Under the pieces are notes generated by a model that ran no database searches, was not told the origin of the DNA, and was given only the letters and a program-made list of their open reading frames with translations. Below, piece after piece: positions 29,263 through 32,639 of a stretch of DNA of 64,000 bases (within the stretch, counting starts at the first letter, position 1; each line of letters opens with the position of its first letter). Position numbers and translations under genes: made by a program. The DNA is from Alkalihalophilus pseudofirmus OF4 (GTDB lineage Bacteria > Bacillota > Bacilli > Bacillales > Bacillaceae_D). The stretch covers positions 2,666,001 through 2,730,000 of the forward strand of contig NC_013791.2 of NCBI RefSeq assembly GCF_000005825.2, written 5' to 3'.

Positions 29263-30300
29263 TTATGGATAGGTTGGCACCACATTAAGACCTGTTGCTT
29301 CATCCCATCCGTTCATAATGTTCCAGTTTTGAATCGCTTGCCCTGAAGCTCCTTTTACCACATTATCAATCACGGAAATGACTGTTATTCTATTTGTTCG
29401 TTCGTCATAACCGATCCCGATATCGCAAAAGTTGCTTCCATATACTTCTTTTGTTGCTGGGTATGAGCCAGCTGGCCTTATTCGAACAAAACGGCTCTCA
29501 TTATACGTTTCTTCGTATAATCCTCTGAGCGCTGCTTCTGAAGTAGGTTTGATGGAGACTCCATACATCGTTGCCATAATTCCTCTAACCATCGGAACAA
29601 GATGAGGCTGGAATGTAATAGCGCCTGCCTTGTCATTCCAAGACTTCAATACTTGCTCGATTTCAGGAATATGCTTGTGGGTATTCACTTGATAAGCTTT
29701 AAAATTCTCATTCATCTCACTAAAATGGGTCATTAGGCTTGGCGTACGGCCAGCACCAGATGTCCCTGACTTCGCATCAATAATAATTGAATTTGGATCG
29801 ATCAACCCTTCTTTAATAAGCGGAGCAAGCCCTAATAAAATCGCAGTAGGGTAACAGCCTGGGTTAGCAATGATATCAGCTTCTTTTATCTCGGCCTGAT
29901 TCCATTCCGATAGTCCGTATACCGCTTGATTTAAGAGATTACTAGATGCAGATGGGCGCTTATACCAAGCGGTGTAAGTATCAGGATCTTCTAATCGCAA
30001 GTCTCCTGACAAGTCGATGACTTGAGCGCCGTGTTGAGCTAATAATGCAGTCAATTCACTTGATACCCCAGGAGGAGTAGCTAGAAAAACAATATCTACT
30101 TCACTTGCGACCTTTTGTGCATCAAGTTCTTCTAATTTTTGTTCATACATTGCTGTTAAATGAGGATAAGATTCATGAATATGCAAATCCTGTTTTGAAG
30201 ATGTATACGTGATGATTTCTTCTGCCTCGGGATGCTGCCATAACAGGCGCAGCAGATCGGCTCCACCATAACCTGTAGCACCAATAATTCCAACCTTCAC
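29263..30300 (-). CDS. argC: N-acetyl-gamma-glutamyl-phosphate reductase (ArgC)
   Basis: NADPH-dependent third step of ornithine synthesis. N-terminal Rossmann fold GIIGATGYGGADLLRLL; catalytic Cys in IANPGCYPTAILLGL; HKHIPEIEQVL carries the conserved His. The start is GTG with GGAGAG 7 bases upstream. 345 residues. It is the first gene of the operon argCJBD-carAB-argF, directly behind a sigma-A promoter overlapped by ARG boxes. Confidence 0.96.
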   Translation of the reverse strand: MKVGIIGATGYGGADLLRLLWQHPEAEEIITYTSSKQDLHIHESYPHLTAMYEQKLEELDAQKVASEVDIVFLATPPGVSSELTALLAQHGAQVIDLSGDLRLEDPDTYTAWYKRPSASSNLLNQAVYGLSEWNQAEIKEADIIANPGCYPTAILLGLAPLIKEGLIDPNSIIIDAKSGTSGAGRTPSLMTHFSEMNENFKAYQVNTHKHIPEIEQVLKSWNDKAGAITFQPHLVPMVRGIMATMYGVSIKPTSEAALRGLYEETYNESRFVRIRPAGSYPATKEVYGSNFCDIGIGYDERTNRITVISVIDNVVKGASGQAIQNWNIMNGWDEATGLNVVPTYP

Positions 30301-30423: not shown

Positions 30424-30448
30424 CAAAAAAACGCGGCATCTAACCGCG
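30424..30448 (-). terminator. Terminator of the ctaG-SCO-peroxiredoxin operon
   Basis: A CGCGG/CCGCG stem (30432-30436 with 30444-30448) is followed on the minus strand by T7. Confidence 0.75.
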
Positions 30449-30456
30449 CTTCTCTG

Positions 30457-30987
30457 TTAATTATTTAATTCTTCCAGCTGTTCGTGAATACGTTCAGCTG
30501 TTTCTTCAATTTGTTCGCCCCATAAATCATTGATTTCATGATAAACATAAGCACCATTTTCATCTAGGATACTTACCCCGCGATAAGACATTTCATCATT
30601 TTTCATGTTGACTTCTTCAAGCACTTCAAATGATTGGTCTGTTAAAAACGAGTACGTAAAAGCACCAGCTTCTTTTAATCGGTTATGATTATCAGGGCTG
30701 TCTACGCTAATAGCATATAGATCTGCATCCATATCATCCAATAAATGAATATTCTCCTGCAACTGAACTAGTTGCTGCTGACAGAGTCCTCAGCCAACTT
30801 CAGTGAAGTGAAATAGCACAGTAGCACGATCTTTATTAGTTAGAGAAACTTCTTGATTATCCTCATTAATAAGAGAAAGTTCACCGCTTGGCTCTCCGTC
30901 TTCCTCTGTACCGCAAGCTTGCAGCATAAGGGCAATCGCAGCCACAATAAGTAATAAAAGCGAACGGCGTTTTATCCAGTTTTTCAT
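30457..30987 (-). CDS. Peroxiredoxin/thioredoxin-like lipoprotein with in-frame TGA at the UxxC position (candidate selenoprotein)
   Basis: Two apparent short frames (30790-31011 and 30457-30762) are in the same phase and joined by one TGA at 30790-30792. Read through, they give a 176-residue protein: lipoprotein signal with Cys25 (MLQAC), a redoxin strand ATVLFHFTEVG, residue 66 encoded by TGA, then Gly-Leu-Cys69 and LVQLQENI. It aligns without a gap to the peroxiredoxin-like pattern VLVFYRG-xWCPYC, with TGA at the first active-site Cys. Codons downstream show no further stop for 110 codons, and conserved AhpC/TSA features follow (LYAISVDSPDNHNRL, FLTDQSFEVLEEV). The start is ATG at 30987 (GGAGGTG 7 bases upstream). 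It probably lies in an operon with ctaG and SCO. A nonsense mutation or Trp misreading of UGA is the alternative. Confidence 0.72.
30759..30792 (-). promoter_or_regulatory. SECIS-like hairpin following the TGA codon
   Basis: After the TGA (30792-30790) come 20 bases, whose last six (GCAACT) pair perfectly with AGTTGC around the loop AGTTC (loop 30769-30765). A G in the second loop position, a short apical loop and a 16-37 base distance from UGA fit the bacterial SECIS description. The lower stem is imperfect. Confidence 0.5.
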
Positions 30988-31086
30988 TTTTTCACCTCCA
31001 CTTACAATCAATTTGAGTTACTCACTAGTAGAAGCTTATGAAAAAGGCTTTGATGAGTCAACTAATCTGTTTGCCAAACACTTTAT

Positions 31087-31125
31087 TTAGTTAACCGTCT
31101 TACTTAACCGTTTTAGTTAACCGTC
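31087..31125. repeat. Three tandem 13-base repeats at the 3' end of the SCO gene
   Basis: TTAGTTAACCGTC, TTACTTAACCGTT and TTAGTTAACCGTC follow each other without a gap. The last copy (31113-31125) contains the SCO stop codon; the other two lie just downstream of it. Confidence 0.9.
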
Positions 31126-31703
31126 GCCTTTAAATCTTTTACAATTTCAGTTTGGTCGCTTTGCAGTCCATCATATTTTCTAATTACATTGCCTTCTGGG
31201 TCTACTAAGTAAAAGCTTGTACTATGCATAATCTCATCACTATCTTCTACATCTTGTACAATCGCAGCGAACGCTTCCTTTGAAAGGTCACCTATTTCCT
31301 CTTGCGAATAGCCAGTTAAAAAATTCCAATAGTTAAAATCGGCCCCGACATTCGTTCCGTACTTATGAAGAACCTCTGGTGTATCTTGTTTGGGATCTAC
31401 TGTAAATGAAATGAATTTCATTTCTTTCCCTTCTGCAATCATCACATCTTGAAGGCGCTGCATATTAGGAGTCATTGTCGGACAAACAGAAGGACATTGG
31501 GTAAAAATCATCGTAGCAAGCCAGTAGTCACCTTCAAGATCACTTTTACCAAACGGTTCTCCATCTTGATTTGTAAATTCAAATTCAGGCATTTCTAAAT
31601 TACCGCCTGAAATATCAAATTCGGAGTTTCCTCCCATACCATAAATCCAGCCGCAGCCAGATAAAAAGAACATGCTTATTAAAACGACGATCCATTTCTT
31701 CAT
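31113..31703 (-). CDS. SCO1/SenC family copper chaperone lipoprotein
   Basis: Membrane-anchored thioredoxin-fold protein that helps place copper in the CuA centre of cytochrome c oxidase. Lipobox LSGC (Cys17), then the copper-binding CPSVC (CxxxC) in MIFTQCPSVCPTMTPNM and the third ligand His in DEIMHSTSFYLVDPEG. 196 residues, close to B. subtilis BsSCO (YpmQ). It follows ctaG by 18 bases and precedes the peroxiredoxin-like gene by about 125 bases, all in one direction, so the three probably form an oxidase-maturation operon. Confidence 0.93.
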   Translation of the reverse strand: MKKWIVVLISMFFLSGCGWIYGMGGNSEFDISGGNLEMPEFEFTNQDGEPFGKSDLEGDYWLATMIFTQCPSVCPTMTPNMQRLQDVMIAEGKEMKFISFTVDPKQDTPEVLHKYGTNVGADFNYWNFLTGYSQEEIGDLSKEAFAAIVQDVEDSDEIMHSTSFYLVDPEGNVIRKYDGLQSDQTEIVKDLKATVN

Positions 31704-31721: not shown

Positions 31722-32639
31722 TTATGATTTTGGAACGGGAATATCACTGATTGTTAATGCCCCGTCCTGCTGTTTCTCTTTTTTCAGCCATTGCTTAAAT
31801 ACGTACCCAATCGTAAAGCCATACGTAATTTCTTGCATGATCTTCATTAGAACCCCTGCAAGCTGCTGGTCCATTCTCGTTTCTAAAAAGGCAAATGAGT
31901 TCGGCCCGCTAAACACCGACATCGGCACATCTGCACCGGCCGGCAGACAATAAGCCATCACAGAAGCCCAGACGCTGGGGTCTGTATAGGTTTGATACAG
32001 CGGTTCTGGGGCAAAAATAATTAATGCACACGCTGGTGTAATGAGAATACCATTTGCAAAAATATAACCAATTCTTCTTAGGTCTGATAACTGTGATGTA
32101 GAAGGAACCGGTGCTAACATATGCCACCACATTAACGTTGCTGCAATAAATAGAACTTGCTGATACAAACTATGCAGGATCTCTGACTGCATCAACGTGT
32201 CAAACATAAATGGGACATGATACAATGAAAAAAGTCCGTTAAATAAGAATAAAGCCATGATTGGGCTCCATATGATTTTAAAGACCGGCCCTAGAGCTGT
32301 GTGCTTAAATTTATTAATAAGAGCTGTAAACACCCATTGAGGCGTGCCAAGCAGCATTAGAGGTACAGCTACAAAATAGGCAAAAACCATTTGCGTCATA
32401 TGGAAAGTAATCATAATATGCCCAGCTACATACAGTGGACTTCCCCATCCAACATATAAAGCAATCAACCCAAGGGAAAAGTATATTTTCTTTCTCAAAG
32501 GAACAACGTCTGCATCCTTAAAACGGACACGCCCTTTGGTTACAATATAAAAATAAATCGCACCAACTATTAAAAGTACAACAATTAACTCTGGAGTCCA
32601 TAATGCACGCGCCCCAAAGTTAGTAAATAATGTCTCCAT
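31722..32639 (-). CDS. ctaG: Cytochrome c oxidase assembly factor CtaG
   Basis: Polytopic membrane protein (about seven helices, 305 residues) of the caa3-type CtaG family, needed in B. subtilis for active cytochrome caa3 oxidase, probably through copper delivery. Conserved His/Met segments that could bind metal are seen: AGHIMITFHMTQMVFAYF, LYHVPFMFD and MWWHMLAPVP. AAAGGAGG precedes the ATG. Although called CtaG, it is unrelated to the Cox11-type CtaG of proteobacteria. It is the first gene of the operon with SCO; the oxidase subunit genes themselves are not in the window. Confidence 0.93.
   Translation of the reverse strand: METLFTNFGARALWTPELIVVLLIVGAIYFYIVTKGRVRFKDADVVPLRKKIYFSLGLIALYVGWGSPLYVAGHIMITFHMTQMVFAYFVAVPLMLLGTPQWVFTALINKFKHTALGPVFKIIWSPIMALFLFNGLFSLYHVPFMFDTLMQSEILHSLYQQVLFIAATLMWWHMLAPVPSTSQLSDLRRIGYIFANGILITPACALIIFAPEPLYQTYTDPSVWASVMAYCLPAGADVPMSVFSGPNSFAFLETRMDQQLAGVLMKIMQEITYGFTIGYVFKQWLKKEKQQDGALTISDIPVPKS

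Follow-up and report, generated by a model that had tools for sequence, protein, structure and literature searches.

Does a gene interrupted by an in-frame stop codon encode an intact protein, and what does that codon specify? The question is raised by a locus in a 64,000-nucleotide stretch of the Alkalihalophilus pseudofirmus OF4 genome (NC_013791.2, positions 2,666,001 to 2,730,000; hereafter the window). A sequence-only reading had joined two same-phase frames, split by one TGA, into a 176-residue lipoprotein with the TGA at residue 66 followed by Gly-Leu-Cys69, and had proposed that the TGA is read as selenocysteine (Sec). These particulars were confirmed: on the minus strand a single 176-codon frame runs from the ATG at 30987 to the end of a TAA at 30457, and its sole internal stop, the TGA at 30790-30792, is residue 66 with Gly, Leu and Cys69 directly after it. 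Under table 11 the gene is broken into two open reading frames of 73 and 101 amino acids. A Pfam AhpC-TSA match spans the TGA, covering residues 36-146 of the joined product (E 3.3e-15, 56.6 bits, cut-off 26). Weighing the evidence below, we consider it very probable that the stop-interrupted gene is intact and that its TGA, here as in dozens of relatives, specifies selenocysteine at the active site of a redox protein anchored in the membrane. The features of the locus are as follows.

30457..30987, minus strand: probable selenoprotein gene for a peroxiredoxin-like lipoprotein, 176 codons with one Sec codon, stop TAA at 30457-30459 (frame and Pfam; conserved in the 42 loci read)
30790..30792, minus strand: in-frame TGA, predicted Sec66 of the UxxC motif UGLC (frame; alignment column)
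30781..30783, minus strand: codon of Cys69, at the peroxidatic-Cys place of peroxiredoxins, Cys in 42 of 42 loci (alignments)
30913..30915, minus strand: codon of Cys25, the predicted lipid-attachment residue at the end of a lipobox-like LQAC; a Cys at all 42 loci (sequence)
30759..30775, minus strand: SECIS-like hairpin of 6 pairs with a 5-base loop (alignment columns 18-34, with the T of the TGA as the first column)
30993..30999, minus strand: GGAGGTG, Shine-Dalgarno-like, 5′ of the ATG (sequence, by eye)
30425..30448, minus strand: CGCGG...CCGCG hairpin followed by T7, possible terminator directly after the TAA (sequence, by eye)

The N-terminal Cys25 predicts a lipoprotein that would sit on the outer face of the membrane. 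A Cys at the end of this lipobox, near the N-terminus, is present in all 42 loci, while the simple lipobox pattern matches only 32 of them. Past this predicted lipid-attachment residue, none of the 42 proteins contains a Cys other than that of the UxxC pair. AlphaFold, run on a two-row alignment (the window protein and locus L023), returned a pLDDT of 34 and a pTM of 0.22, and the fold is assigned by sequence homology. A promoter and terminator scan of the window showed no excess over shuffled sequence (promoters 9 versus 8.3, terminator-like sites 2 versus a mean of 1.7) and gave the CGCGG...CCGCG stem in the plus orientation only.

If the TGA is a codon for selenocysteine, it should recur in homologues. 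At family level the gene was found in 19 of 41 genomes at E≤1e-20, with the TGA in 19/19 matches; at order level 65 of 397 genomes matched at E≤1e-15, with the TGA in 68/68 rows. An order-level profile search extended this to 81 TGA-bearing rows in 77 genomes at E≤1e-12 (rows counted by eye), and at E≤1e-20 the TGA was present in 73 of 74 rows (also counted by eye), the exception covering profile positions 110-171, past the TGA. Forty-two loci were read base by base, comprising all 19 family-level rows and 23 of the 61 further order-level rows. In every one the TGA lies in a single alignment column, a Cys follows three residues past it, and the Arg is invariant; the second stop in loci L027, L041 and L048 fits the terminal one, each frame running through one TGA to its end. 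Among the sequences read there is no Cys form of full length; order-level rows lacking the TGA occur at weaker E-values (from about 7e-17), begin at profile position 18 or later, and may include Cys forms. Relatives in the genus that lack the TGA share 25-33% identity, and their motifs are those of AhpC-like or thioredoxin-like proteins. A phylum-wide profile search of 398 genomes, with at most 8 candidates scored in each, returned two genomes at 1e-20, one of them the window's own; they belong to the same order and each match has the TGA, but this depth is too shallow to exclude relatives elsewhere; tblastn against plasmids gave no match at 1e-10.

The codons 3′ of the TGA were also compared. 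Among 13 chosen pairs, dN/dS past the TGA was 0.027-0.234 in the 12 for which it is defined (one is undefined), compared with 0-0.318 before the TGA, and the two highest of the post-TGA values belong to pairs that are nearly identical, differing by two changes of each kind. The protein beyond the TGA is under purifying selection.

Two observations on copy number accompany these searches. The TGA-less exception (G178:C37:367924-368109) is a C-terminal family fragment in a selA-positive genome and is perhaps a decayed or broken copy. Three genomes of family f47 (G152, G275 and G412) each have two TGA-bearing matches of unequal score, which suggests a second paralogous Sec subfamily; G067 likewise has two.

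The host genome (4.25 Mb, 99.99% complete) contains the machinery for Sec insertion. Its selA, selB, selD and tRNA-Sec are all present and lie at most 10 kb apart, with profile scores of 571 bits for selA, 352 bits for selB and 418 bits for selD; the tRNA-Sec, at C1:2198683-2198775, scores 58 bits against a cut-off of 47 and is also found by ARAGORN. Among 14 control genomes, the cut-off was passed by tRNA-Sec in 5, selB in 2, selA in 1 and selD in 2, with further ones below it.

Presence of the gene tracks selA. Within the family, gene and selA are concordant in 41 of 41 genomes (19 with both, 22 with neither), and two genomes lack both in genera whose other members have both (G015 and G026). 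Across the order, all 65 carriers, or all 77 by profile, fall within the 181 selA-positive genomes of 397. Random placement would give this with P of 4e-12 for the family and 3e-26 (65 carriers) or 7e-32 (77 carriers) for the order; these values ignore kinship and overstate independence, since the genomes are related by descent. Among the genomes searched, those found to have the gene all carry selA, and members of two genera lack both. The gene is thus a candidate reason for the retention of the Sec pathway in the family and is not the sole one, because even the profile search gives no TGA-bearing match in 104 of the 181 selA-positive genomes of the order sample (116 have no match at 1e-15). 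Two selA matches are short: that of G016, a genome with the selenoprotein gene, spans positions 1-303 of 455 and contains one TAA (G016:C1:2509625-2510554), and that of G021 spans positions 1-314. A truncated selA or an assembly error is possible in these cases.

Bacterial selenoproteins are expected to carry a hairpin directly 3′ of the UGA, and one was found here. RNAalifold, applied to the 54 bases from the TGA, predicted six pairs between columns 18-23 and 29-34. The pairing holds in 98.7% of 234 cells (39 distinct rows), compared with 3.8-44.9% after a shift of the partner by 1-3 columns, and the closing pair is broken in 3 of the 39 rows. Cells changed on both sides number 19, against a shuffled mean of 6.6, a count reached in none of 500 shuffles; pairs with double changes (2) and further pair types (3) were reached by 65 and 93 of the 500 shuffles, respectively. 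The covariation comes mostly from one pair, columns 21-31 (G-C 20, A-U 17, G-U 2), which joins the third position of a Gln codon to the first position of a Leu codon, and reading of the codons shows these changes to be silent in the protein. Compared with 300 synonymous recodings each, 39 of 42 hairpins fall in the most stable 5% (mean z -3.3) and three fall outside, and the second loop base is G in all 42. No Rfam family matched in the window at gathering scores, which says little because the library is not known to contain a general bacterial SECIS family.

These results bear together on what the TGA is. The sequence-only reading had proposed searching the genome for Sec genes, aligning homologues at the TGA column and examining selection on the downstream codons; all three came out in favour of selenocysteine, as did selA tracking and the hairpin. 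None of the findings that it had named as counter-evidence (no Sec machinery, a tryptophan or unrelated residue in homologues, or TGC/TGT at the site) was made. A true stop, leaving a pseudogene or a truncated 65-residue lipoprotein, agrees with the meaning of TGA under table 11 and is nevertheless rejected as highly improbable, given the purifying selection downstream, the TGA column kept across genera, the hairpin and the presence of the gene only with selA. Reading of the TGA as tryptophan, or general read-through, is an equally remote prospect: the thioredoxin-like locus L032 has a Cys in the TGA column, Sec machinery is present and selA tracks the gene. A sequencing error for TGC or TGT has a smaller probability still, as the same TGA recurs in other assemblies and species, including Alkalihalophilus marmarensis DSM 21297. 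The selenocysteine reading gives back to Bacillales genomes an enzyme that is lost where table 11 divides its gene, as happens in the window's genome.

We next consider what kind of active site this selenocysteine would belong to. Searched against solved structures, the family profile scores best with peroxiredoxins of the Bcp and AhpC kinds (2cx3, 1.8e-14). In the peroxiredoxin alignments Sec66 falls on the Thr/Ser of TxxC, and Cys69 on the peroxidatic Cys of that family; R136, which is invariant, aligns with the Arg of the peroxiredoxin RG motif, also present in the genome's own AhpC-like locus L030. Compared with the canonical PxxxTxxC, the Cys and the Arg are kept, the Pro is replaced by Thr62 and the Thr by Sec66. 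Of six weak relatives aligned from the genus search, five are AhpC-type peroxiredoxins (FTxVCPTE) and one, L032, is thioredoxin-like (CGLC), by the motifs on which the labels given here are based. The earlier proposal that the TGA occupies the first Cys of a CPxC motif is therefore inexact: in peroxiredoxins that place is a Thr or Ser, and the peroxidatic Cys aligns with Cys69. In L032, the sole thioredoxin-like protein aligned, the column holds the first Cys of CGLC. Judged from these alignments, the active site is a reworked peroxiredoxin one, with the predicted Sec in the Thr place and a Cys in the peroxidatic place. The redox couple is likely an Se-S pair within UxxC, because the mature protein has no other Cys.

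By domain and motif, the family of the window protein fits an already established kind, the peroxiredoxin-like thiol:disulfide oxidoreductase selenoproteins, which have a PF00578 domain with UxxC or UxxU (example WP_010940744.1; available text of PMC9312934, PMC13188914, PMC1794560 and PMC5029168). The AhpC-TSA domain, the UxxC motif and Sec from TGA are shared; the named carriers in the available text of PMC1794560 are mainly Deltaproteobacteria, whereas the present proteins are Bacillales lipoproteins, often beside sco1-ctaG. A 2016 survey lists 32 such selenoproteins in 28 organisms (PMC5029168, in the text available), and a 2006 survey, in the portion accessible to us, gives three selenoprotein families in Bacillales (PMC1794560), among which the present family may be included. 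Selenoprotein peroxiredoxins share the PF00578 domain and differ in that their TxxU puts Sec in the peroxidatic place (accessible sections of PMC9312934 and PMC13188914), whereas the UxxC of the window protein has Cys there and Sec at the Thr. In the literature on selenoproteins and TlpA, with supplements and most subscription journals outside coverage, the Bacillales family was not found among the matches listed, and the words 'Bacillales', 'Bacilli', 'Bacillus' and 'Bacillota' are absent from the main text of PMC13188914.

No model of NCBIfam release 20.0 reached its cut-off for the window protein. The related domain of NF053656 (redoxin_TUGYCR, TUGYCR motif thioredoxin fold (seleno)protein) matches 13 of 42 members at E≤0.001, and the window protein scores 21.7 bits against a cut-off of 100. 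NF040769 (SelL-related redox protein) matches 38 of 42 at the same threshold, and here the window protein reaches 15.6 bits (E 0.0093), the cut-off being 120. TlpA of Bradyrhizobium and ResA of Bacillus use CxxC where the window family has UxxC, and thioredoxin folds carry a cis-Pro at the place where this family has the peroxiredoxin Arg. Both proteins resemble the window protein in being membrane-anchored with two redox residues spaced by two, and Bradyrhizobium TlpA reduces ScoI and the oxidase subunit COX II, as described in the available text of PMC6696091.

Three genes flank the probable selenoprotein gene.

31113..31703, minus strand: sco1-type gene (Pfam SCO1-SenC), upstream neighbour
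31722..32639, minus strand: ctaG, caa3-type cytochrome c oxidase assembly factor (TIGR02737, 412 bits, cut-off 279), next upstream
29263..30300, minus strand: argC, downstream neighbour (open reading frame; flank comparison)

The sco1 gene is upstream in 29 of 42 loci and directly adjoins in 27, an open reading frame intervening in L049 and L050; ctaG lies within the examined flank in 28 loci, all among those 29, and argC is downstream in 27. Twelve loci have neither sco1 nor ctaG, and L043 is cut upstream by a contig end. The window sco1 matched no NCBIfam model at 1e-10. Going by the name of its model, the Bacillus-type CtaG would serve the caa3 oxidase; the CtaG treated in the available text of the review PMC6696091 is of the Cox11 family. 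It is plausible that the protein takes part in assembling or protecting cytochrome oxidase, given the linkage to sco1 and the reduction of ScoI and COX II by TlpA.

Taken together, these results suggest a model in which SelB and Sec-tRNA would read the UGA at codon 66, helped by the hairpin just 3′ of it, and the full-length lipoprotein would be anchored at the outer face of the membrane. Its peroxiredoxin-derived domain would hold a redox centre of Sec66-x-x-Cys69 with the peroxiredoxin Arg kept as R136, and the Sec66/Cys69 pair would most likely alternate between selenol/thiol and selenenylsulfide. Peroxides or disulfides may be reduced at the membrane surface. Because of the linkage to sco1 and ctaG, the substrate may be a participant in the assembly of cytochrome oxidase, either Sco1 or the CuA subunit, or the enzyme may shield that site from peroxide.

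Which of these activities dominates can be weighed from the same observations. There is close to an even chance that the protein is a seleno-peroxiredoxin at the membrane's outer face acting chiefly as a peroxidase, and not as a Sco1 partner in oxidase assembly: its best solved relatives are Bcp/AhpC peroxiredoxins, the invariant R136 aligns with their Arg, and 12 of 42 loci lie away from sco1-ctaG. However, the Pro and Thr of PxxxTxxC are replaced, sco1 is kept upstream in most loci, and a UxxC pair marks thiol:disulfide oxidoreductase selenoproteins in the available text of PMC9312934. That linkage, with sco1 usually the adjoining gene, instead argues for a main job of reducing the cysteines of Sco1 or of the CuA site of cytochrome oxidase, as Bradyrhizobium TlpA does. 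We hold this possible and lean against it, as the domain scores nearer to peroxiredoxins than to TlpA/ResA, the same 12 loci are unlinked, and linkage is no proof of interaction. It is rather unlikely that the protein is a selenium-dependent, lipid-anchored reductant dedicated to Sco1/CuA maturation, derived from a peroxiredoxin by a change of Thr to Sec and with no Cys version seen. Because of the sco1-ctaG link, whether selenium has a part in oxidase assembly can be tested directly.

Further observations concern the Sec gene cluster of the same genome. The selD gene has one in-frame TGA (L022:8537-8539, G000:C1 near 2191537), which forms part of U-G-C-K, a motif of the UxxK type; a stem-loop is predicted within the 54 bases from this TGA. 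The genome therefore has at least one further probable selenoprotein, selD being its probable second. Between selD and selB lies a PhnC-E-D-type ABC transporter (L022:9575-12027). Because TIGR04553, the model of a putative selenate transporter, also gives a match to the binding protein of this system (141 bits, cut-off 250), the transporter may import a selenium oxyanion instead of phosphonate.
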